A stretch of 20,235 nt of DNA from a virus, in the IMG/VR virus record IMGVR_UViG_3300025769_001123, positions 1 through 20,235 of that record; one strand, written 5' to 3'. A program made the translations under genes and the position numbers. The notes beneath the pieces were generated by a model. The model searched no databases and was not told the DNA's origin. It saw only the letters and a program-made list of their open reading frames with translations. Below, piece after piece: positions 1 to 20,235 of this stretch (position 1 is the stretch's first letter; the number at the start of each line of letters is the position of its first letter).

Positions 1-1293
1 GAGGGTATCTTCAGCGTCATGTTGCTCAACTGGCAAGTCATAAATCGCCTCTAGTTCTTGAGCGATTAGCCCGTACTCTTGAAAGCTGTCGTCTGCCTTC
101 CAGTTAAAACTGCGAACTTGCATTGCATCTATCTTGTCGCCCGCAGATGGCGCATCGACAATGTTCTTTTTCAAACGCTCGTCTGACAATGTCGGGAAAC
201 TTGTGGAAGTGTTGGTCATGTTTATCCCGCCGACATAGGCGCCATTGTGATAATTCAGCCAAGCGTTTCTTGTGCCATCAAAAGTTTTAATCATGTAGAA
301 ATAAGCTGGAGAACCATCTGATGTTGCATTAGCGGCTTGAAGGCTTCCAGCAGTCGTAAGATTTGCTACTGTTTTACCCATTAAAACTTGAGGGGACGCA
401 TCTATCCTCATAGCCTCGTTACCAGCAGTGCCAAATAGAAGCGCACTAGAGCTATTAGACGCAATAAAACCACGCTGACCAGAGTTGTCGTTGGTCACAA
501 ATTGTATATGACCACCCACACCACCAGAGCTTTCACGAATAATTACTGCGCCAGTTGTTGCAGCAGCATTCTGCAAGAAACGCCCACGCCCATGAACATC
601 GAGAGTTGCATTTGATGGTGTTCCAGCAATTCCAACAGCACCATCGCTACGTTGTATTCTCATAGCTTCTGTCTGTGTGCCGCCGACCTCTCGATTTATT
701 GCTAAGTCACCTTCAGTTGCTCGTGTAAGAAAGTGAAAGCCGTGATTGTCATTTCCACCGTTCAGTTTAAGAGCCGCAACGCTGTCGCTGTTACCCATAA
801 CATCAAGGGTAGCTTCTGCTGTCGTGGTGCCAATTCCAACTTTGCCATCGGAAAGAACACGCATACGCTCCGAGCCAGCCGTTTCAATAGTAACCGTATC
901 GGCGGCTGGGAAGCGGATGGTGGTATTAGTATCGCCAGCGTGAACGATTTTGTCAGTGATTGTCAGGTCGCCAGAAACAGTTGCAGCCCCACCAATAGTG
1001 ACATCTTGGCTAAAGTCACCAGAGAAGACAGAGAAGGTATCAAACCCAAGGACTTCCAGCGTGTCGCCTACTGTGGCACCGCTATCAAGAACAATGCTAG
1101 TGCCAGAGGTAGCAGTGTAGTCAGACTTGTCTAGCTTGACGCCATTGAGAAACACATCAGTAAACTCCGCATCGGTGTAGCTCAACGTGCGGTTATAGTC
1201 GTCAGTACCACTAAATGTGGTTTGACCAGCAGTCGCCGTGTAAATAAAGCGATTGCGAACACCTGTGCTGGGAGATTTACCTATATATGCCAT
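1..1293 (-). CDS. Tail fibre with C-terminal S74 intramolecular chaperone domain (partial, runs off the window edge)
   Basis: All 431 codons from the ATG at 1293 down to base 1 are open; the C-terminus lies outside the window. The protein opens MAYIGKSPSTG, a common start of marine phage fibres. It continues with beta-type repeats carrying the 'ERMRVLSDGKVGIGT' kind of motif, typical of fibre shafts. At residues 370-377 (bases 163-186) it has SDERLKKN, the hallmark start of the Peptidase_S74 chaperone domain, followed by DKIDAMQVRSFNWK and YGLIAQELE. In this family the domain drives trimer folding and then cuts itself off before the Ser. The likely role is therefore receptor binding at the virion tail. 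It starts just after the stop of the 92-aa gene and is the last tail gene seen here. The N-terminus resembles that of the 296-aa fibre. Confidence is high for the domain; the receptor is unknown. Confidence 0.9.
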   Translation of the reverse strand, partial: MAYIGKSPSTGVRNRFIYTATAGQTTFSGTDDYNRTLSYTDAEFTDVFLNGVKLDKSDYTATSGTSIVLDSGATVGDTLEVLGFDTFSVFSGDFSQDVTIGGAATVSGDLTITDKIVHAGDTNTTIRFPAADTVTIETAGSERMRVLSDGKVGIGTTTAEATLDVMGNSDSVAALKLNGGNDNHGFHFLTRATEGDLAINREVGGTQTEAMRIQRSDGAVGIAGTPSNATLDVHGRGRFLQNAAATTGAVIIRESSGGVGGHIQFVTNDNSGQRGFIASNSSSALLFGTAGNEAMRIDASPQVLMGKTVANLTTAGSLQAANATSDGSPAYFYMIKTFDGTRNAWLNYHNGAYVGGINMTNTSTSFPTLSDERLKKNIVDAPSAGDKIDAMQVRSFNWKADDSFQEYGLIAQELEAIYDLPVEQHDAEDTL

Positions 1294-1295
1294 TA

Positions 1296-1574
1296 TTATA
1301 ACTCTGGTTGACTATCCATAAATGTTTCATAAGCTGATTTAACGCTGTCAGTCCACACTGCGTTGCAGACTGCTTGCACAGTTGCATCTTCGCCTGAGAT
1401 GTCTGTGTCGCCCCAGCTACCATCTGTCTTAGTGCGGCAGTGCAGAACGTGGCGATGATATGTGCGGCTGATTTCTACACCGTCATCTTTCACGATTGTT
1501 GCTTTGCGAACATTGACGTTTTTGTGGTCGCCTCTGACCTCACAGTCATATTCAAATTCTTTAGTTAATGCCAT
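1296..1574 (-). CDS. Conserved small tail-region protein, 92 aa
   Basis: The protein starts MALTKEFEYDCEV. I chose the ATG at 1574 because a GGAGAT ribosome-binding site lies just upstream. A longer frame from TTG at 1586 would place that site inside the gene. It is a soluble protein with two halves: a beta-rich part with DGVEISRTYHRHVL around residues 36-49, and a helical end. I recall similar proteins between fibre genes of other marine phages, with no known role. Its place between two fibre genes suggests a small fibre-associated or assembly factor, which is inference only. The stop is followed two bases later by the S74 fibre start. Confidence 0.75.
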   Translation of the reverse strand: MALTKEFEYDCEVRGDHKNVNVRKATIVKDDGVEISRTYHRHVLHCRTKTDGSWGDTDISGEDATVQAVCNAVWTDSVKSAYETFMDSQPEL

Positions 1575-1586
1575 TTTAATCTCCAA

Positions 1587-2477
1587 TCATCCTGATACTG
1601 TATATGTCACACTAAGCCAGATTAAATTATTACTGCCTGAAGTTGTTAAGTTGCTTGTAGTGATATTTGCATTAAGAGAAGACCGAGCATCAGTTGATGA
1701 ATTAGTATATATCCTAACTTCAGTTGAATTTGGTGCCGCCAAACATGATTGTGGATTTAGTGTCGTAAAACCTGTTGCGTAACCAATAGTACCAGCCGCA
1801 TAGCCAGAGGATATGTTTGCAACCGTGTACGGCAAACCAGAAATTTTAACTTGACCAGTTCCAACCGTTGAGATGCTAGTTGTTTGTATCCCTAAATTCA
1901 CCTGACACATTTTGCCGATTTTTACATAACGCCCAAACTGTAAGTTATAACCTCCAACAACTAAATCACCACCCGTTGAAAAATATGCTGGTGTCCACGA
2001 ACCCTCCTCATAATCATCCAGCGCATTGGCGGCGGCTGTATCGCCGTTGAAGGTTAGGCCGCCGCCGCCCAAAATTCTCATTCGTTCTGTGGCGGCTGTC
2101 TTAAATTGCATGTCATTAGTGCTGTGAACATAAGTAATCCCACCAACATCATCATCATCTGGGTCGCCAAATTGTATATATCCATTCCGACTGGCACCTG
2201 ATTCTAGTGACAAACCAGCGTGTCGATTTGAAGATGTTATAGATATCGTACTATTGTCAGCAGCAGTATCAGCATTTCCAGAATTTTTAACCTCTACAAT
2301 TCTGCCAGAGCTAAAGCCTCCGTGACCCACTGGAGAAGCAGTCCCCACCCCGACCCGATTATTCGTGCTGTCAACAACTAGCGTATTTGTGTCAACTGTC
2401 AGGTCATCCGTCACAGTCATTGACTGCGATTGAGTAACATCTGTGTGGTCAATAGGCTTTTTGCCAGTATAAGCCAT
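1587..2477 (-). CDS. Putative receptor-binding tail fibre, 296 aa
   Basis: The N-terminus MAYTGKKPIDHTDV resembles the start of the S74 fibre at the window edge, suggesting both attach to the same tail part. Residues about 25-45 contain the NRVGVGTASP type of motif that is frequent in phage fibres. A glycine-rich stretch (GGGG) and DDYEEGSWTP near residues 153-162 introduce a C-terminal beta domain. No S74 chaperone is present in this one. The start codon overlaps the stop of the upstream 109-aa gene by one base (TGATG), so translation is probably coupled. The likely role is host recognition. An alternative is a structural side fibre or a fibre tip. Confidence 0.8.
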   Translation of the reverse strand: MAYTGKKPIDHTDVTQSQSMTVTDDLTVDTNTLVVDSTNNRVGVGTASPVGHGGFSSGRIVEVKNSGNADTAADNSTISITSSNRHAGLSLESGASRNGYIQFGDPDDDDVGGITYVHSTNDMQFKTAATERMRILGGGGLTFNGDTAAANALDDYEEGSWTPAYFSTGGDLVVGGYNLQFGRYVKIGKMCQVNLGIQTTSISTVGTGQVKISGLPYTVANISSGYAAGTIGYATGFTTLNPQSCLAAPNSTEVRIYTNSSTDARSSLNANITTSNLTTSGSNNLIWLSVTYTVSG

Positions 2478-2806
2478 CAGGTAATCTCCAAAATAGACAG
2501 AGCTACATCAGCAGACGTTGCCGCACTACTGGTCACTTTCAGAATATCTGATGCCTCCATTACAACTTTTTGGTCGCCGCCAACGACAACCAAGGAAGAG
2601 CCAACTGGTACAGGGGCAGCCTTTACAATATAAATATTATCTCCATCATTGTTTTCCAACTGAACATCAACAGAGATAGATGAAGAAGTAATATTGGCTA
2701 CCGACAACCCAATGATTGTTGTCTCTGTAGAACTAGGACAAGTATAAATGGTAGCAGCACCAGTGCCTATTCCAGTATCAGTCTTTAATTTAAACGCATT
2801 AGCCAT
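2477..2806 (-). CDS. Conserved virion-associated protein, 109 aa (beta-rich)
   Basis: A small all-beta protein, with IYTCPSSTETTIIGLSVANI near residues 20-39 and PVPVGSSLVVVGGDQKVV near residues 66-83. I recognise this pattern from structural-region proteins of other marine phages, where it is annotated without function. The fold may be an immunoglobulin-like or jelly-roll decoration or neck piece, which is inference. It sits between the stalk protein and the 296-aa fibre and shares one base with the latter. A promoter-like TATAAT lies 6-11 bases before its ATG (see that entry), which would put a transcript start almost on the start codon. Confidence 0.75.
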   Translation of the reverse strand: MANAFKLKTDTGIGTGAATIYTCPSSTETTIIGLSVANITSSSISVDVQLENNDGDNIYIVKAAPVPVGSSLVVVGGDQKVVMEASDILKVTSSAATSADVALSILEIT

Positions 2807-2811
2807 ATCGT

Positions 2812-2840
2812 ATTATACTCCATAAATTATCCCAACGCAA
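2812..2840 (-). promoter_or_regulatory. Candidate internal late promoter (TTGCGT-17-TATAAT)
   Basis: Read on the minus strand, TTGCGT (2835-2840) is followed after exactly 17 bases by TATAAT (2812-2817) and then A. This is the same layout as the four other minus-strand promoters. The -10 box lies only five bases before the ATG at 2806. The transcript would therefore start at or inside the start codon and either be leaderless or serve the genes further down. The -35 box lies in the last codons of the 512-aa gene. It is the weakest member of the set because of this tight placement. Confidence 0.35.
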
Positions 2841-4365
2841 TAGCAAATGCCACGGCAGCAGCATTAGCATTACTAATACTGGTTGCCATAGTTGCGCTTA
2901 GTGTTGCTCTTGCTGTATTACTATTTCCAACACTTGTTGCCATAGTTGCACTCAATGCAGTTATTGCTGAGTTGCTATTACCAATACTAGTTGCCAATGC
3001 TGCAGAGGTAGCAGCAAATGTACTAGACACTGCAGCTATTCTAGTCTCTAGCGTAGCGGATGTCCCTGCACTTGCAGCAGCCACGGCGATTGTATTTACT
3101 GAAGCAACAGCATCTAAGTTTGTTTTAGTAAGAACAGATACTGCAGCTATTCGAGTTTCTAGTGTAGCAGAAGTGGCGGCAAAGGTAGAAGATACTCCTG
3201 CAATCCTAGTCTCTAATGTAGCAGAAGTGGTGGCAAAGGTAGAAGATACTCCTGCAATCCTAGTCTCTAATGTAGCAGATGTACCAGCACTTGCAGCAGC
3301 TACAGCAATTGTATTTACTGAGGCTACTGCATCTAGATTAGTTTTCGTGAGAACAGATACTGCTGCAATCCTAGTCTCTAATGTAGCAGAGGTAGCTGCA
3401 AAGGTACTTGATACCCCTGCAATCCTAGTCTCTAGTGTTGCGGAGGTAGCTGCAAATGTAGAAGACACTCCTGCAATTCTAGTTTCTAGTGTTGCAGATG
3501 TTCCTGCACTTGCATAAGCTCCTGCTGAAATAACAGTATTAATAGATGTAATAGAATCTAGATTAGTTTTGGTAAGAACCGATACTGCCGCAATACGTGT
3601 TTCAAGTGCAGCAGAAACAGTAGCAATACTAGTTGCCATAGTATTAGAAACAGTTGCTATACGAGATTCAAGAGTGGCTGATGTGGCTGCAAAGGTACTA
3701 GATACTGCAGCTATACGTGACTCAAGAGTTGCTGAAGTAGTAGCAAAGGTACTGGATACTCCTGCAATTCTGGTTTCAAGATTAGCAGATGTAGCTGCGC
3801 TTGCTTTTGTTTCAGCAAGAACTGATACTGCATTAATGCGTGTTTCAAGGGCTGCTGAAGTAGCAGCAAAGGTACTTGACACTCCTGCAATTCGAGTTTC
3901 TAATGTAGCAGATAAAGCAGCAACTGTAGAAGATGTAGCAACAGGCTCACTAGCAACCAATATATTTGTGGCATTTACTGTTGTTGCACTTATCGTGCCA
4001 GCACTAACAGTTGTTGCAAAAAAATTACCAGTACGTAAGCTACTAACACTTACATCTTGAAATACTAAAGTAGCCGCAGTTAAATTATTAGTTGTAATAT
4101 TAGTAGCAGAAATAGTTGTTATTTGTGCTTCAGTAGCATTCAAAGTATTTGGTTGAAATGTACCACCAACAACTAGATTACCAGCAACACTTACATTGCC
4201 AGTAAATGCAGCAGAAGTTTGAGAAAGTTTTAATGCAGAGTTATTACCAGAACCATCTTGGACATTACGCAGTGTTTCATCTATACCATTATTGGAAGCA
4301 CTAGAATTAATCTGCAATAAATCTTTATAGGTATTTGCAATTTTCTTACCTGTTAAATCTGTCAT
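2827..4365 (-). CDS. Repeat-built tail stalk or fibre protein, 512 aa
   Basis: Residues 1-150 form a mixed Asn/Thr/Ala-rich head containing short beta-like stretches (GNVSVAGNLVVGGTF). Residues about 152-460 are an array of an 18-residue unit, core LETRIAGVSSTFAATSAT. Leu, Ile, Val, Phe and Ala fall at 4-3-4-3-4 spacing, the pattern of a long parallel helical coiled coil. Within the array a larger 73-residue unit containing VLTKTNLDAVASVNTI occurs twice and once in diverged form. The C-terminus is Ala/Ser/Asn-rich and ends AVAFAIALG. It has no catalytic motif or Cys. I take it as an oligomeric stalk linking the tail to the fibres encoded downstream. Its start overlaps the stop of the zinc-ribbon gene (TAATG). 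Confidence 0.75.
   Translation of the reverse strand: MTDLTGKKIANTYKDLLQINSSASNNGIDETLRNVQDGSGNNSALKLSQTSAAFTGNVSVAGNLVVGGTFQPNTLNATEAQITTISATNITTNNLTAATLVFQDVSVSSLRTGNFFATTVSAGTISATTVNATNILVASEPVATSSTVAALSATLETRIAGVSSTFAATSAALETRINAVSVLAETKASAATSANLETRIAGVSSTFATTSATLESRIAAVSSTFAATSATLESRIATVSNTMATSIATVSAALETRIAAVSVLTKTNLDSITSINTVISAGAYASAGTSATLETRIAGVSSTFAATSATLETRIAGVSSTFAATSATLETRIAAVSVLTKTNLDAVASVNTIAVAAASAGTSATLETRIAGVSSTFATTSATLETRIAGVSSTFAATSATLETRIAAVSVLTKTNLDAVASVNTIAVAAASAGTSATLETRIAAVSSTFAATSAALATSIGNSNSAITALSATMATSVGNSNTARATLSATMATSISNANAAAVAFAIALG
2986..3912 (-). repeat. 54-bp coding repeats with a 219-bp higher-order unit
   Basis: The segment encodes the 18-residue (54-bp) unit of the stalk protein many times over. 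Superimposed on it, two 219-bp blocks (3064-3282 and 3283-3501) encode almost the same 73 residues. The copies differ mostly at third codon positions (for example gcagccacggcg against gcagctacagca), so they are old duplications kept by selection on protein sequence. They are not recent slippage products. The array is prone to recombination and to assembly error. Confidence 0.85.
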
Positions 4366-4649
4366 TATACTATATTCCAGTTCTTGTCAACATCTTCCCA
4401 ATTGTCAAACACAGCCGCTTCCCAATTTAGGTTTCTATCATTATTAAATTCAGGTCTAGCATCTTTAATAAACATGCTTCTATCTATAGTAGATATAATT
4501 TTATTTTGTGGATGATTAACTAAGTCATAACCTTTTTCATTATCCTCTGGACAAACCCAAAGACCATAACTATTTTTTTTCATTACTGTTCGTGGATATG
4601 CAAAGCCACAAACATCGCAGACTATCTTATTATATTTACCTCTTGCCAT
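4365..4649 (-). CDS. Zinc-ribbon-like protein B, 94 aa (tandem paralogue)
   Basis: Residues 11-15 read CDVCG, and KKNSYGLWVCPED (24-36) brings a third Cys. HPQNKI (47-52) follows and may offer a His ligand. The neighbouring 79-aa protein has the same order: CDVCGF, KKNSYG, VCP-D, YD, HPQNKI. The two genes are thus a tandem duplication. The C-terminal third (residues about 60-94) is acidic, Asn/Trp-rich and unrelated to that of its partner. I recall single-copy relatives of this CxxCGF...VC...HPQ family near phage tail genes, with unknown role. A metal-stabilised small virion or assembly protein is the best guess. It overlaps the stalk gene by TAATG. Confidence 0.75.
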   Translation of the reverse strand: MARGKYNKIVCDVCGFAYPRTVMKKNSYGLWVCPEDNEKGYDLVNHPQNKIISTIDRSMFIKDARPEFNNDRNLNWEAAVFDNWEDVDKNWNIV

Positions 4650-15716: not shown

Positions 15717-17253
15717 CCCTCTTTGTTCGCCGTGGGTTATAATCATCTTCCCAGCTGGGGTCTTCATTGTGCGACACATGCCAACTGTCTCTCATATAGT
15801 GGATAGCCATAGTCATTGCATCCACTTGGTCATCATGTGCGCCATTGGGAAAGGCTAGGCACTCGTCATATAAATCCTTCGCCCACTCCTTACCTGTGGG
15901 TATGTAGACACGACCTGACTCCATAAGAGGCGTAGCGGCGTAGACACGTGATACCTTGTCCCTATCGGGGAGGTAGTCCAGAACAGGTAGTCCTGCGAGT
16001 CGCATATCTTGAAGCAACGATTGACCAGAAGCTTTCTTCTCAATAATGCACACATCTGGTCTGTGTTTCTGGTACAACATTTGTGCCGTGCGGCGAAGGT
16101 CAGGATACTCGAAGCGGTCTTTGATATTCCCAAGAAGAATGAGGTTGGGGACAACATATTCTCCACCATATTCATCTTGCTCAACTTGATGGAAGATACC
16201 CCACGTTTGTATGACACTATAGTCTGCCGTTTTCTTTGTAGAGAATGCTGTGTCGTAGGTCTGGATAATAAACTCACATTGCGGCGGGTCTTCGTATTCC
16301 CACCACTCAAACCAGTTCTTCTTGATAATACCACCTTCGTCTGGCGAGGGGTTCTGCATATATAGCGCATCCCAGTATCTACTCCCATTACTTGCTCGTA
16401 TCTCTTGTTCGTCTAGCTTCAATACATCGTCTGGCTTCCACTCTGGAAAGTATGATGAGCCTTCGGGCAGACCCAGCAAGTCTGCTGCAGTCTCGTCCAG
16501 CCATGCAGGGATACTAATTACTTCCCACGGCTCTGTGGTAAACTCTGACTCCTGCTTGAGAAGCCAGCCACACAGGTCATCAAAGTGGTAGCGTGTATTA
16601 ATAATAATGATTGCACCATTAGGCATCAGACGGGTACGCAGACCAGAAGGCCACCACTCCTTGATATACCTGCGGCCTGCTTCACTAAAGCTGTCTTCTT
16701 CTGACATAACGTCATCCAGTAAGGCTAGGTGTGCGCCACGACCCGCAATCTGTGACCGCACACCTGCTGCATAGTAGGAGCCATTGTGATTTGTTTTCCA
16801 CTTACCTGCTGCCTTAACGTCTGACCGCAGGGACACTCCCTTGAACACACGCTGGAAGTCTTCTGTGTTTACAATGTCCCTGACGCTACGACCAAAGTCA
16901 CTAGCCAGTTGGTCGCTGTGGGACACAGACATAATCTCGTGGTTGGGTTCACGGCCTATATACCATGCAGGAAATATCTTACTGGTAATAAGAGACTTGC
17001 TTGAGCGTGGCGGTAGGAATACCATCAGTCTTTTTATCTCACCATCGGCTACCTTCTGCAGTCTGTCACACAATAGCTCAATGTGCCTACCCATATGGAA
17101 GTCAGTTACTAGGGTAGGAGCTACTCTGCGTACAAATGTAAGTAGGTCTTCTTTTGATTTTTCCTGAATATATTTTTCTAGTGCTATATCTAGAGTCTGA
17201 TGGTCAAGATAACCGCCAGACTGTACCACATCTTGTATTTCTTCTAATTCCAT
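15697..17253 (-). CDS. terL: Terminase large subunit, 518 aa
   Basis: This is the DNA-packaging motor ATPase and nuclease. Residues 80-87 (LPPRSSKS) are the Walker A loop in its terminase form, ALLDD (177-181) is Walker B, and IIINTRYH (206-213) is the coupling motif. The C-terminal nuclease has D324 in TYDTAF, E395 in IIEKKASGQ and the GAHDDQVDA signature (461-469), where D464, D465 and D468 are metal-ligand candidates. All expected catalytic positions are present, so the enzyme looks intact. No small terminase gene is visible in the window. The gene begins the minus-strand late block and is preceded by a promoter at 17412-17440 and a leader of about 150 bases. Confidence 0.95.
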   Translation of the reverse strand: MELEEIQDVVQSGGYLDHQTLDIALEKYIQEKSKEDLLTFVRRVAPTLVTDFHMGRHIELLCDRLQKVADGEIKRLMVFLPPRSSKSLITSKIFPAWYIGREPNHEIMSVSHSDQLASDFGRSVRDIVNTEDFQRVFKGVSLRSDVKAAGKWKTNHNGSYYAAGVRSQIAGRGAHLALLDDVMSEEDSFSEAGRRYIKEWWPSGLRTRLMPNGAIIIINTRYHFDDLCGWLLKQESEFTTEPWEVISIPAWLDETAADLLGLPEGSSYFPEWKPDDVLKLDEQEIRASNGSRYWDALYMQNPSPDEGGIIKKNWFEWWEYEDPPQCEFIIQTYDTAFSTKKTADYSVIQTWGIFHQVEQDEYGGEYVVPNLILLGNIKDRFEYPDLRRTAQMLYQKHRPDVCIIEKKASGQSLLQDMRLAGLPVLDYLPDRDKVSRVYAATPLMESGRVYIPTGKEWAKDLYDECLAFPNGAHDDQVDAMTMAIHYMRDSWHVSHNEDPSWEDDYNPRRTKRVGYWRT

Positions 17254-17281
17254 ATTGCTTTTCTGCAGTCAGTGTTGCATA

Positions 17282-17297
17282 TTTGCACTATTGCAAA
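17282..17297. promoter_or_regulatory. Palindrome TTTGCA-CTAT-TGCAAA, candidate operator
   Basis: The 6-bp arms are perfect (17282-17287 and 17292-17297), and a further TTGCA half-site lies at 17275-17279. The right arm contains the -35 box of the plus-strand promoter. On the other strand the whole element lies in the terminase leader. A repressor bound here would block the plus-strand promoter and could also stop the terminase transcript. Confidence 0.5.
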
Positions 17298-17319
17298 CTG
17301 GTTGAATCCGTGCTATACT
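17291..17319 (+). promoter_or_regulatory. Plus-strand promoter TTGCAA-17-TATACT
   Basis: TTGCAA (17291-17296), a 17-base spacer and TATACT (17314-17319) give a good host-type promoter, with a start near 17326. Downstream comes a hairpin-forming repeat (AACTTTA-CTT-TAAAGTT) and a perfect GGAGGT (17338-17343), but no reading frame follows it sensibly: the next ATG (17364) is immediately followed by TAG. A terminator lies 140 bases on. Confidence 0.55.
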
Positions 17320-17411
17320 AACTTTACTTTAAAGTTCGGAGGTAAATATATAGAAGCTAGTCTATGTAGACCTGCACAACCCCCGCTAGGTAGCTCTGGA
17401 CAACTACTGCT

Positions 17412-17440
17412 ATTATACTTCGTACATCTTTTTTACACAA
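17412..17440 (-). promoter_or_regulatory. Late promoter for the terminase gene (TTGTGT-17-TATAAT)
   Basis: On the minus strand, TTGTGT (17435-17440), 17 bases, and TATAAT (17412-17417) followed by AG. The predicted start near 17405 gives a leader of about 150 bases that crosses two palindromes (17321-17337 and 17282-17297). The layout equals that of the portal, scaffold and post-capsid promoters, so these four form one class. Confidence 0.55.
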
Positions 17441-17460
17441 GCACAATCAGCCAACTCCAG

Positions 17461-17486
17461 AAGCCCCCGCCCGTGGGGTTTTTTTT
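17461..17486 (+). terminator. Rho-independent terminator, plus strand
   Basis: A short G:C stem (AAGCCCC at 17461-17467 with GGGGTTT at 17475-17481, one G:T pair) has a 7-base loop and leads into eight T in a row (17479-17486). It closes the candidate small RNA and would also stop any other rightward transcript before the early genes. Confidence 0.7.
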
Positions 17487-17880
17487 GTACCTGATGAAGT
17501 ACCCTGGTATTTTTTTCTACTACTAGAGCAGTCTTTTTGCAGTTTTTAAAAGTCAGAATAGACCCACCCCCTGTTTGATTAAAGACCCTTGTCAAAATAC
17601 TCAGTATATGTCAGGGGTATATTATATATATGTGTGCAGGCACGTTTTGTGGGTATGGGTATGTGTAGTTCTCGGTTTGTTCTCGTTGTGTTCCCGATAA
17701 GAATCCTTTTCTGTTGCAGATTTACCACAGAATCTAAGAGATTCTATGAGGAACTCGACAGATTTCACACAAAGTGTGTCAAATATGCCACAGTCTCACA
17801 CACCCTCCCACGCCTTGCACATACCCCCTCCCCCTCCCACATTATGTGTAAGTGTATGATATGCTTACGAGAAAAAGCTG
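17487..17880. other. Non-coding part of the divergent hub: palindromes and a C-rich tract
   Basis: I see no credible gene here. The only long plus-strand frame starts with TTG and has Cys/Ser-rich, unstructured content. The stretch holds an AT-rich segment (17618-17631), a perfect 7-bp palindrome AGAATCT-AAG-AGATTCT (17729-17745), a second with the same 3-base spacing, CACAC-AAA-GTGTG (17766-17778), and a C-rich tract (about 17803-17838) that gives five short G-runs on the minus strand. Such a region beside the terminase gene could hold operators, an origin or a packaging site, but nothing here decides between them. Confidence 0.5.
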
Positions 17881-17909
17881 TTGACAACCAGCCCTACCAT
17901 CTGTATCTT
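17881..17909 (+). promoter_or_regulatory. Early promoter TTGACA-17-TATCTT
   Basis: A consensus TTGACA (17881-17886), a 17-base spacer and TATCTT (17904-17909) lie before the first rightward gene. The start would be near 17916, only a few bases before the first copy of the conserved-loop hairpin. That hairpin would then stand at the very 5' end of the early transcript. Confidence 0.6.
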
Positions 17910-17918
17910 ACGTATTTA

Positions 17919-17944
17919 ATAACCCCTTACTTGTGAAGGGTTAT
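17919..17944 (+). promoter_or_regulatory. Conserved-loop hairpin, copy 1
   Basis: ATAACCC (17919-17925) pairs with GGGTTAT (17938-17944). The enclosed sequence contains TACTTGTGA, which is shared with copies 2 and 3, and the stem can be extended by two A:T pairs past a bulged C. ATATAAATAC follows. It lies 33 bases before the ATG of the first early gene and just after the predicted early transcript start. Confidence 0.7.
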
Positions 17945-17976
17945 ATAAATACTTGATACATATGAGGAGATGAAAT

Positions 17977-18168
17977 ATGAGATTTGGATACTTGATGATT
18001 TGCCTAATGATGATGCTTGCCAGTGTGATGCTGATGCTTGCTGGCGGTATGCTGTACACATTGCAGGAAGGCTTTCCCTACATTCAAGGCGTAGCCTTAT
18101 TCATATCGTTCACTGGCTTCGCTCTATCGTTTTATACGATAATCGAAATCACGAGGCTTGACTATTAG
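17977..18168 (+). CDS. Small membrane protein, 63 aa
   Basis: Two hydrophobic helices, at about residues 4-27 (GYLMICLMMMLASVMLMLAG) and 37-57 (GVALFISFTGFALSFYTII), are joined by a short loop with QEGFPY, and a charged end follows. I chose ATG 17977 because GAGGAG (17964-17969) lies seven bases before it. A frame from ATG 17970 touches that site directly and encodes a Cys/His/Trp-rich product without a hydrophobic core. The size and two helices allow a holin-like or superinfection-exclusion role, but the early-type position gives no decision. No family is recognised. Confidence 0.65.
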   Translation: MRFGYLMICLMMMLASVMLMLAGGMLYTLQEGFPYIQGVALFISFTGFALSFYTIIEITRLDY

Positions 18169-18175
18169 GATTTTA

Positions 18176-18204
18176 CAAGATACTGATACTTGTGAAGTAT
18201 CTTG
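18176..18204 (+). promoter_or_regulatory. Conserved-loop hairpin, copy 2
   Basis: CAAGATACT (18176-18184) pairs perfectly with AGTATCTTG (18196-18204), nine base pairs, around the loop GATACTTGTGA, which is identical to that of copy 3. The stem sequence differs from both other copies. ATAAAATAC follows, like the ATATAAATAC after copy 1. It stands between two early genes, 37 bases before the ATG at 18242. Confidence 0.75.
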
Positions 18205-18241
18205 ATAAAATACTTATAAACGCTGTCGGAAAGGACACGAC

Positions 18242-18514
18242 ATGACCAACGAAGACTTTTATTGTAAATTTGAAATTTACAAGGTGGTGAAAACCACGGA
18301 GCATGGCCTCACATACGAGGTTGAGCAACATGTCATGTGGGTAACTGCAGAAAGCGAAGCTGAGTTCCTAATGTGGAAAAATGCTGTTAATCAGCATGAC
18401 AATCTGTACATTGACAGCGATATGGCTGTCTTGTCCGATTGGGCATGGGACATGCACCACCAGCGTGACTTGGACAATGGTGTCCAGCAATTCCAGACTT
18501 CCGAAGGAGTGTAG
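18242..18514 (+). CDS. Hypothetical early protein, 90 aa
   Basis: An acidic protein, rich in Trp, Met and His, that starts MTNEDFYCKFEIYKVVKT. Residues 1-35 look like beta strands (YEVEQHVMWV) and the rest is helical (AEFLMWKNAVNQHDNLYIDS). GGAAAGGA lies a few bases before the ATG. It follows hairpin copy 2. It has no recognisable catalytic motif, and a small regulatory or inhibitor protein is the usual content of such early regions. Confidence 0.65.
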   Translation: MTNEDFYCKFEIYKVVKTTEHGLTYEVEQHVMWVTAESEAEFLMWKNAVNQHDNLYIDSDMAVLSDWAWDMHHQRDLDNGVQQFQTSEGV

Positions 18515-18515
18515 C

Positions 18516-18665
18516 ATGGAAATTTACAACGTAGTTGATTTGACTGATATGTATGGTTCGCCATCTTACGGCATTGAGCATATCGAACATGGTGTTGTGT
18601 CCGTATGGACAGATTGGCAACTTGCTACTGACGTAGCAGAAGATATGAATTGGTCTGGTCAATGA
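18516..18665 (+). CDS. Hypothetical early protein, 49 aa
   Basis: It starts at ATG 18516, preceded by GAAGGAG in the end of the gene before, with only one base between stop and start codons. The sequence is acidic (MEIYNVVDLTDMYG, then GIEHIEHGVVSVWTDWQLAT). A short in-frame extension to 18381 exists but would lie within the 90-aa gene, so I reject it. No family is recognised. Confidence 0.6.
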   Translation: MEIYNVVDLTDMYGSPSYGIEHIEHGVVSVWTDWQLATDVAEDMNWSGQ

Positions 18666-18733
18666 TTGAAATCATTGTAGATATCATGGCTGTTTCAAGC
18701 CTATTCATGGGCTATGCCCTACTAACCCGCTAG
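18662..18733 (+). CDS. 23-aa hydrophobic peptide gene
   Basis: ATG at 18662 overlaps the TGA of the 49-aa gene (ATGA), and the frame closes at TAG 18731-18733. The peptide has an acidic start (MIEIIVD), a hydrophobic run (IMAVSSLFMGYALL) and a final Arg, the usual form of a single-span membrane peptide with its C-terminus inside. The start would rely on coupling, since no separate ribosome-binding site is seen. Such short frames also occur by chance, so confidence is moderate. Confidence 0.45.
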   Translation: MIEIIVDIMAVSSLFMGYALLTR

Positions 18734-18750
18734 TAAATCGGAGATTTAAG

Positions 18751-18957
18751 ATGAATTATAAGTTTGTAAAACTTGGCAAAGGTATGCGTATCGTGAAGCA
18801 CAATGGCAAGCCTATCGGCACGCTTGAGTTTACCAAAGGTAAATGGTTGCTGTCGTCTGGCGTTGACCCAGAGTATCGCCGCTACTTCACTAATGTGAAG
18901 CAAGCTAAGATTTGTTGCAATGCCGACCCGAAATTTTATTTCGGAATTGGGGCTTGA
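18751..18957 (+). CDS. Hypothetical early protein, 68 aa
   Basis: A basic, compact beta-type protein: MNYKFVKLGKGMRIVKHNGK, then PIGTLEFTKGKWLLSSGVDP and a helical NVKQAKICCNAD end. The first part resembles a small SH3-like barrel in strand spacing, though this is only an impression. CGGAGA lies before the ATG. Near its end the DNA can form a hairpin (CCGAAA with TTTCGG, 18929-18945) just ahead of the next gene. Confidence 0.65.
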   Translation: MNYKFVKLGKGMRIVKHNGKPIGTLEFTKGKWLLSSGVDPEYRRYFTNVKQAKICCNADPKFYFGIGA

Positions 18958-18959
18958 CA

Positions 18960-19118
18960 ATGGCGAAGCTGTATGCGACAGTATGGGCGAAGTGTCGGTG
19001 GACGGGCATAATCATCGAAGATGAATGCTACACTGATGATGACGTTGCCAGTTGGGAAGGCGACTATGACTATGAAATAGTCAAGATAGACTACACGAAT
19101 GAGGTTGAAAATGTCTAA
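18960..19118 (+). CDS. Hypothetical early protein, 52 aa
   Basis: I place the start at ATG 18960 (MAKLYATVWAKCRWTGIIIE), two bases after the previous stop; the frame is open further back but only inside the previous gene. The C-terminal half is very acidic (ECYTDDDVASWEGDYDYEIV), so the protein could mimic nucleic acid, though it is too short to claim this. Its last eight bases overlap the next gene. Confidence 0.6.
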   Translation: MAKLYATVWAKCRWTGIIIEDECYTDDDVASWEGDYDYEIVKIDYTNEVENV

Positions 19119-19821
19119 TTACAATCTGCTATCCGTTGGCAATAATGCCAAGACTGTCAAAGGTGACGGGTCTGAATACCTGACTGCCATATTGTATATG
19201 GCTCCTGCCGACAATCTGGAAGGTGTCAATGTGTGTGCTATGGCAGAAGCGGCAGGATGCAAGGCCGCTTGCCTGTACACTGCTGGTCGTGGCAAGATGA
19301 ACTCTGTTCAAGCTGGTCGGCTTCGCAAGACTATGCTATGGCGTGATAACCGTGTTGCATTTTTGCAACAGTTACGGGAAGACATTGCCAAGTTTACTCG
19401 CTATTGCGAGAAGCGTGGTATCCAGCCTTGTGTTCGCTTGAATGGCACGAGTGACATTATGTGGGAGAAGTATCTGGATATGGAAACAGAGTTTCCGACA
19501 GTACAATTCTATGACTACAGCAAGCTGTACCTTCGGGCTTACAAAGACTTGCCTAGCAATTATCACCTTACACTGTCCTACAGTGAAGCTAATCCTGACT
19601 TTGCTGAAGCAGTGCTGAATGCACACAAGCTGACAGGCGTAAACGTAGCCGTTGTGTTCCGTGACAAAGACACTATCCCTACCAGCTTTGCTGGCTCTAC
19701 AGTGTTGGATGGTGACAAGGATGATTTGCGCTTTCTGGATGCACCACGGCACATTGTGGCTCTGTATGCAAAGGGTGACGCTCGCAAAGACGACACTGGA
19801 TTTGTTGTCGATGCGGCATAA
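19111..19821 (+). CDS. Phage-specific Cys-motif protein (DUF7227/gp88-like), 236 aa
   Basis: The features in order are: LLSVGNNAKTVKGDGSEYLT at the N-terminus; C42-x7-C50-x3-C54 within VCAMAEAAGCKAACLYTAGR; RLRKTMLWRD; PCVRLNGTSDIMWEK; FYDYSKLYLRAYKD; NYHLTLSYSEANPD; NVAVVFRDKD; VLDGDKDDLRFLD; and VALYAKGDARKDDTGFV. I recognise this order from a phage family of unknown function. The alternation of strands and helices after the Cys motif suggests a TIM-barrel-like fold. The three Cys might bind a metal or iron-sulfur cluster but do not match the radical-SAM CxxxCxxC spacing. I chose ATG 19111 because GAGGT lies five bases before it; an in-frame ATG at 19099 precedes that site. It is the largest early gene here. 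Confidence 0.75.
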   Translation: MSNYNLLSVGNNAKTVKGDGSEYLTAILYMAPADNLEGVNVCAMAEAAGCKAACLYTAGRGKMNSVQAGRLRKTMLWRDNRVAFLQQLREDIAKFTRYCEKRGIQPCVRLNGTSDIMWEKYLDMETEFPTVQFYDYSKLYLRAYKDLPSNYHLTLSYSEANPDFAEAVLNAHKLTGVNVAVVFRDKDTIPTSFAGSTVLDGDKDDLRFLDAPRHIVALYAKGDARKDDTGFVVDAA

Positions 19822-19844
19822 CACTAATATGTATATGGGTTTTA

Positions 19845-19871
19845 ATAACCTTGATACTTGTGAAAGGTTAT
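19845..19871 (+). promoter_or_regulatory. Conserved-loop hairpin, copy 3
   Basis: ATAACCTT (19845-19852) pairs perfectly with AAGGTTAT (19864-19871), eight base pairs, around the loop GATACTTGTGA, identical to copy 2. ATAAAACAC follows. A second, unrelated hairpin (TAAGAC with GTCTTA, 19894-19913) stands downstream. Both lie in the 131-base gap between the Cys-motif gene and the next gene, which holds no reading frame of note. Confidence 0.75.
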
Positions 19872-19952
19872 ATAAAACACAATACAGATTAGATAAGACT
19901 TGGGTTTGTCTTAAAACAGCCCGATTTGTAACGCAAACTTATGAGGTATATT

Positions 19953-20156
19953 ATGCGTATCAATACACTCAACGACAACACCAATGGTTTTCGGTTCAAC
20001 ATTGCTGGTGTGCAAGGCTTGTACCGCAAGCGTGTAGCAATTCGCCGCTTTGGTATTACCCGTGGCGACAGCATGACTGGTTTCCACCTTGGCAAGCGTA
20101 GCTTGTACATTGAAGGCGGTAACTATCGCCGCATGTTGCATAACTTTGCAGGTTAG
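19953..20156 (+). CDS. Hypothetical basic early protein, 67 aa
   Basis: I place the start at ATG 19953 (MRINTLNDNTNGFRFNIAGV), since GAGGT lies five bases upstream; an in-frame ATG at 19941 precedes that site. The protein is rich in Arg and Gly (LYRKRVAIRRFGITRGDSMT) and ends GNYRRMLHNFAG. Its composition fits nucleic-acid binding, but no family is recognised. Hairpin copy 3 stands in its leader. Confidence 0.6.
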   Translation: MRINTLNDNTNGFRFNIAGVQGLYRKRVAIRRFGITRGDSMTGFHLGKRSLYIEGGNYRRMLHNFAG

Positions 20157-20159
20157 TCG

Positions 20160-20203
20160 TTGACAATCACCTTGGCATGTGTTAAAACTGCCTAACAGTT
20201 TTT
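20160..20203 (+). promoter_or_regulatory. Weak promoter-like TTGACA and a terminator-like hairpin before the last gene
   Basis: TTGACA (20160-20165) stands 17 bases before TAAAAC (20183-20188), a poor -10 box. The latter overlaps a 7-bp hairpin (AAAACTG with CAGTTTT, 20184-20202) followed by one more T. The hairpin may be a weak terminator after the 67-aa gene. It does not carry the conserved loop of the three copies upstream. Confidence 0.3.
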
Positions 20204-20219
20204 GACAATGAGGTATGAC

Positions 20220-20235
20220 ATGGATATTACAACCA
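20220..20235 (+). CDS. Start of a further early gene (partial)
   Basis: ATG at 20220 follows GAGGT with five bases between, the same start layout as at 19111 and 19953. Only MDITT is visible before the window ends, so nothing can be said of the product. Confidence 0.45.

Follow-up and report, generated by a model that had tools for sequence, protein, structure and literature searches.

A hairpin with covarying stems at presumed early gene borders of HMO-2011-like marine phages

Introduction

The RNase III sites of phages T7 and T3 (R0.3, R0.5, R1, R1.1 and R1.3) are hairpins of 40-70 nt that lie between codirectional early genes, shortly after a stop codon and with 19-56 nt left to the start codon that follows, and contain a helix of at least about 20 bp. 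The annotated T3 stem-loops span 40-54 nt, lie 0-2 nt past the stop codon where a gene precedes closely, and leave 19-36 nt to the next start; their stem sequence is conserved (AAGGUCA.../...GUGGCCUU), an internal loop is shared, and 16% of their pairs are G-U. T4-type phages carry PeSL (promoter-early stem-loop) cassettes, repeated hairpins between early genes with an early promoter in each copy. The extended start-associated sequences (ESAS) of Cluster K mycobacteriophages are inverted repeats whose arms follow a consensus and stand 4-13 bp apart; tied to a 13-bp SAS, they lie just upstream of the starts of non-structural genes, and their function is given as unknown (PMC3203893). Hairpins also serve as the early promoters of the virion RNA polymerase of phage N4, where they form on the template strand with a 5-7 bp stem, whose variable bases need only pair, and a 3-nt loop with a G:A pair (PMC4496689). 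Finally, the put RNA of HK022, a structured part of early transcripts, comprises two stem-loops of conserved sequence in about 70 nt; there are two put sites per genome, one per operon, and they act over long distances (PMC9378689).

Phages of the HMO-2011 type are described as widely distributed and dominant in the ocean (PMC9038755), and the papers on these phages that we searched yielded nothing on the control of their early genes. Here we analyse three hairpins in a window of 20,235 nucleotides, the whole stretch of viral DNA under study, together with their counterparts in related phages. The element that they represent is most likely a structured cis-acting signal for early phage genes, one without earlier description in the literature searched, which takes in few subscription journals.

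Results

Three hairpins in the window

Head and tail genes (major head protein, portal and large terminase) occupy the minus strand of the window, and a plus-strand region, presumed to be early from gene order and from HMO-2011, begins at about 17.9 kb. Within it the Gp88-like gene (phrog_1617; 19111..19821, plus strand; E 1e-75) lies directly 5' of the third hairpin and marks the homologous site in relatives. By this protein the nearest named phage is Puniceispirillum phage HMO-2011 (53.8%), whose homologue matches PF17338. The genes that follow the three hairpins, all on the plus strand, are small: 63 residues with one or two membrane segments predicted by eye and no family (17977..18168), 90 residues with no family above the curated cut-off (18242..18514), and 67 residues with no family (19953..20156).

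A first-pass annotation, made from the letters of the window, had described three copies with different stems, each pairing with its own arm, and this description is borne out. In copy 1 (17898..17964, plus strand; core 17912-17952) the arms ATAACCC/GGGTTAT pair at 17919-17944 (inner stem 17919-17925/17938-17944), enclosing the loop 9-mer TACTTGTGA at 17928-17936. Copy 2 (18163..18218; core 18170-18211) pairs CAAGATACT with AGTATCTTG at 18176-18204 (inner stem 18176-18184/18196-18204), and copy 3 (19824..19892; core 19839-19878) pairs ATAACCTT with AAGGTTAT at 19845-19871 (inner stem 19845-19852/19864-19871). These two have one 11-base loop in common, GATACTTGTGA, located at 18185-18195 and 19853-19863 respectively, again as the annotation had it. 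All three copies have the same plus-strand orientation, and the next start codon follows 33, 38 and 82 bases downstream. The 9-mer TACTTGTGA occurs at exactly three sites in the 20,235-base record, all on the plus strand, and these are the three hairpins. RNA folding gives z-scores of -3.4, -5.3 and -3.2 for copies 1-3, and none of 300 dinucleotide-preserving shuffles of 17250-20235 contained two hairpins with a common loop 7-mer. The three hairpins are real, far beyond chance.

They are also longer than the annotation had them: in each copy the inner stem has 7-9 bp and is set off, by an A bulged on the 3' side (17945, 18205 and 19872), from an outer AT helix, beyond which pairing is imperfect. 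The arms of the outer helix are GTATTTA/TAAATAC, ATTTTA/TAAAAT and GTTTTA/TAAAAC in copies 1, 2 and 3, for which the predicted folds over the full extents contain 26, 19 and 26 base pairs. An AT-rich stretch 3' of each copy, noted in the first-pass annotation, is indeed present but is not a separate feature, being the 3' arm of the outer AT helix.

The best sigma70-like promoter on the plus strand of the region, TTGACA-17-TATCTT (17881..17909; a consensus match only, at 10 of 12 positions), adjoins copy 1 on its upstream side and overlaps the weak outermost pairing of that copy. A small second hairpin, TAAGAC-TTGGGTTT-GTCTTA, lies 3' of copy 3 at 19894..19913 on the plus strand. Contig L236 has a counterpart after position 2050, CGAC-TTGGGTTT-GTCG, in which the loop is identical to that in the window and the arms are swapped yet still pair.

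Distribution in related phages

Relatives were collected through the Gp88-like protein (phrog_1617) and the large terminase. Dozens of related marine phage contigs have this architecture at the same gene borders, as do the cultured phages HMO-2011 (three copies), CRP-345 and CRP-1. The exact loop with a stem recurs in four close contigs, among the IMG/VR matches listed; an exact-loop scan of IMG/VR with GATACTTGTGA N6-10 ATAAA gave, among the matches listed, chance matches besides close relatives. A scan for the architecture only, given no loop sequence, also found the element in more distant relatives, where it has other stems and loops and lies at these same gene borders.

A covariance model from 23 relatives (R1) gave 42 matches in 96 sources, and matched copy 1, whose sequence was in its training set, with E 2e-5. 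In a second set of sequences its only two matches were both in HMO-2011, on which it had not been trained, at 4-42 (E 0.07) and 1203-1244 (E 1.2). These E-values are marginal alone and the case is made by the positions; the hairpin at 1203-1244 lies directly 3' of the Gp88-like gene, as does copy 3 in the window. A second model (R2), from HMO-2011-type sequences only, finds three copies in HMO-2011, two of them from its training set, and, outside that set, one copy each in the Roseobacter phages CRP-345 (E 1e-7) and CRP-1 (E 2e-6). In the window it matches only copies 3 and 1, both marginally (E 0.8-1). The two independent models thus each match the other's family at the right places. The annotation would have been refuted by relatives without the pairing or by covariation confined to the three copies; the search of related phages with a covariance model, which it had proposed as a check, found pairing kept at the same gene borders and covariation beyond the three copies, whereas the loop sequence is kept only among close relatives.

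Contigs L227, L339, L472 and L435 carry two to eight copies each, and in scans of relatives of 53-60 kb the copies lie near the terminase/early border only. R2 had no match in phages CRP-2, -3, -9, -207, -212, phiM6, HTVC033P and HTVC115P, nor in the bacterial genomes with Gp88-like relatives (Rhizobium, Mesorhizobium, Aminobacter). No element of this form was seen in some close TerL relatives, including L165 and L168. In the corresponding early region a 76% TerL relative, L213, has three AT-only hairpins (698, 943 and 1096, minus strand), perfectly paired over about 22 bp and with another loop (ATTTTAAT/ATAATTAT).

Covariation and wobble pairs

That the element is recognised as a structure, as the annotation had proposed, is strengthened by the relatives, in which both sides of the stem change while pairing is kept at the same borders. 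In a model-fitted alignment of 21 distinct sequences and 14 pairs (A2), which leans towards the structure of the model, 93.5% of cells pair and 13 of the 14 pairs show compensatory change on both sides. The covariation score is 0.713, against 0.188 for shuffled and at most 0.165 for slid alignments. RNAalifold, run on a MAFFT alignment (A1) with no structure given, recovered the same helix with compensatory change in 12 of 13 pairs; because the A1 sequences were chosen by a structure scan, the percentage paired is biased upward, whereas the diversity of pair types is unbiased. MAFFT alignments of the HMO-type hairpins are partly out of register, and their pair counts are weaker than those of A2.

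The stems, with a G+C content of about 25%, are almost free of wobble pairs. In the main stems G-T occupies one of 318 core positions, compared with 89 of 1451 in unrelated hairpins found by the same procedure at the same loci, and overall G-T is no commoner than A-C (6 versus 11). Counted as RNA, G-U makes up 5 of 162 pairs here and 15 of 93 in the T3 RNase III sites (p 4e-4), and the five are mostly in the apex or the outer stem. A helix under selection only as RNA would be expected to accept G-U pairs. Either the hairpin matters as DNA, or template switching keeps its arms identical. Template switching may be the source of the lack of G-U, on top of a function.

The loop and its apical helix

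The loop had been described as constant. This is true of close relatives, with Gp88-like proteins 95-97% identical; farther away the sequence changes, and what stays is the GA flanks and the apical pairing. Among 25 distinct loops, 24 have GA on both flanks and one has AA/GA. Just inside the flanks all 25 have two stacked pairs (AC/GU, AU/AU, GU/AC, GC/GU or AU/GU). When loop halves were re-dealt, a mean of 19.6 paired and none of 20000 shuffles reached 25, a result to which we attach no probability because related loops are not independent. With sense-strand wobble the apex pairs in 25 of 25 loops and by antisense rules in 20 of 25, a difference that points to the mRNA-sense strand as the one that folds. 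Tandem sheared G-A pairs are a possible arrangement of the GA flanks, whose conservation, with that of the bulge, suggests sequence-specific contacts.

Position relative to genes

The elements sit between codirectional early genes. Over 70 elements, from partly redundant relatives, the element follows the previous stop by a median of 18 nt and precedes the next start by a median of 35 nt, with a Shine-Dalgarno sequence at nearly all of these starts; most start codons are 14-56 nt from the element. In most copies the hairpin ends well 5' of the ribosome-binding site and leaves it uncovered. In L227, successive early gaps of one operon are each occupied by hairpins, which leaves little room for a separate promoter. 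The early gaps of L227 (minus strand, 186-4494) also contain small hairpins with a Shine-Dalgarno sequence in the loop and arms that differ yet pair, CAGC[TTTTGGAGG]GCTG and CGG[TTTTGGAGG]CCG.

A distinct palindrome of 14-15 bp, GTCC(G/A)...(C/T)GGAC, is present in 3-6 copies per genome, in HMO-2011 at 61, 1262, 1927, 53879 and 54808, and also in CRP-345, CRP-1 and the contigs of L334, L339 and L435. At several sites it lies between the hairpin and the ribosome-binding site. Its arms are conserved, the inner pair swapping between G-C and A-T, and from its sequence it looks like a candidate protein-binding DNA operator.

Discussion

What does such a structure do at the borders of early genes? 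Our preferred reading, to which we give a probability of roughly 0.4, is a leader or intercistronic RNA signal that processes, insulates or stabilises the early transcripts of HMO-2011-like marine phages. Host RNA polymerase would transcribe through the hairpin, and the transcript would fold into the long bulged stem, topped by the GA/GA flanks and the small apical helix above them. The structure would then be recognised by an RNA-binding factor of the host or the phage, for which an RNase III-type nuclease is the leading candidate, so that each early cistron is separated or insulated and the next gene keeps a leader of only about 35 nt, its own ribosome-binding site included. Compensatory change, the 18/35 nt median geometry and its likeness to T3, the sense-strand apex and the occupation of successive gaps in L227 all argue for an RNA signal, and the near-lack of G-U in the main stems argues against it. 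On balance the element probably acts as RNA. It is appreciably less probable that the recognising factor is RNase III, a possible but unproven candidate for which the conserved apical GA flanks are not accounted for; the report that the Sinorhizobium (S. meliloti) RNase III needs longer double-stranded RNA than the E. coli enzyme (PMC6121014) also counts against it.

The strictly Watson-Crick stems, with G-T not preferred over A-C, would suit a DNA hairpin: an AT-rich palindrome that is extruded, or that forms when the DNA enters single-stranded, and that a protein recognises. It might, for instance, be an early promoter or initiation element, N4-like but with another polymerase or a host-enzyme activator. 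The low G+C content, the place in the early region 14-56 nt from most starts, and the apical GA flanks, which recall the sheared G:A of N4 hairpin loops (PMC4496689), are consistent with this. We nevertheless consider it unlikely, if the strongest competitor, given that no phage RNA polymerase was found, that N4 uses the template strand whereas the apical helix here fits the sense strand, and that stems and loops are much longer than those of N4. A search with PF00940, positive in the controls T7 and phage Bylgja, found no T7-type RNA polymerase in HMO-2011 and near-complete relatives (the window record is partial), and neither an HD motif nor the other polymerase motifs looked for occur in the large virion proteins. 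An N4-type promoter, raised in the first-pass annotation, is thus unlikely, though a much diverged N4-type enzyme is conceivable. The end of the structural cluster holds a 1253-aa virion protein (phrog_22602; L379 5255-9013, G020) and, in HMO-2011, the 1128-aa gp22, in which no polymerase motifs were seen. A rather more doubtful proposal is a signal coded by structure, with a free stem and its information in the apical GA flanks and bulge, that, to judge by the strict Watson-Crick stems, would act at the DNA level, extruded or single-stranded, through a polymerase or activator that is not the N4 virion RNA polymerase.

Other explanations fit less well. A translational operator, an RNA hairpin through which a phage protein represses or activates several early genes together, would explain why one structure lies upstream of several ribosome-binding sites, and the suggestion of sequence-specific contacts at the GA flanks and bulge, like the Shine-Dalgarno hairpins that come next in L227, is in keeping with it. 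It is improbable even so: the ribosome-binding site is uncovered in most copies, no RNA-binding protein was identified, and the lack of G-U is unexplained. Antitermination of the put or nut kind, in which nascent RNA acts on RNA polymerase, might be expected from the promoter-like site directly 5' of copy 1 and from the second small hairpin that follows some copies. However, copies that recur in gap after gap of a single operon, as in L227, do not resemble the one long-distance site per operon of put, with its two stem-loops twice per genome (PMC9378689), and the single terminator-like site in the region lies upstream of copy 1; the put-type signal that the annotation had suggested is accordingly very improbable. 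Hardly credible is the absence of any selected function, with template switching during replication keeping the palindromes perfect. Nearly perfect arms, block differences between relatives (L157 versus L160) and a symmetrical difference in length between copy 2 and L001 are what such switching would leave, but the bulged A and GA flanks outlast complete replacement of the stem, at fixed gene borders and in many phages.

Several further candidates were tried and rejected. The hairpins are not intrinsic terminators, having no T tract after them, and the region's single terminator-like site is at 17465. TTGACA occurs upstream of many copies, at a variable 6-32 nt, and so in no register for a sigma70 promoter. 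A promoter for a T7-type RNA polymerase was set aside as no such polymerase was found, a kink-turn because the three-nucleotide bulge beside GA pairs is absent, and pairing of the loop with another RNA in trans because loop sequences diverge too far.

The presence of the element in the cultured phages HMO-2011, CRP-1 and CRP-345 offers a direct handle on early-gene control, and the covariance models can be used to find early regions in metagenomes. If true, the DNA-level reading would give abundant marine phages a new class of early-gene signal. A broader question comes with the wobble-free stems: is some RNA-like covariation kept at the DNA level?

How, then, does the element compare with known systems? 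A covariance-model search of Rfam 15 gave no family match, and the main text of the searched papers on HMO-2011-type and RCA phages makes no mention of the element and lacks the words stem, promoter and terminator; HMO-2011 and a hairpin were not found together in the literature searched, which takes in few subscription journals. Unlike the T4-type PeSL cassettes, the hairpins have no promoter in fixed register. They share with put a place in early transcripts, copy 1 likewise lying 3' of a promoter-like site, but their sequence is free where that of put is conserved. With the N4 promoters they share early genes, stem bases that need only pair and G and A in the loop, and differ in their long stems and sense-strand apex. 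The closest analogues in position are the T7/T3 RNase III sites and ESAS, and neither fits fully. ESAS are likewise inverted repeats just upstream of gene starts, but the arms of the present element are free, and SAS-like matches do not exceed chance. The RNase III sites correspond in size, orientation, closeness to the stop and distance to the start, and in the length of the helix (19-26 pairs in the window copies and 16-26 in those of HMO-2011); in T3, however, it is the stem sequence that is conserved, with frequent G-U, whereas in the present element the stem is free, G-U is nearly absent, and it is the apex that is conserved.
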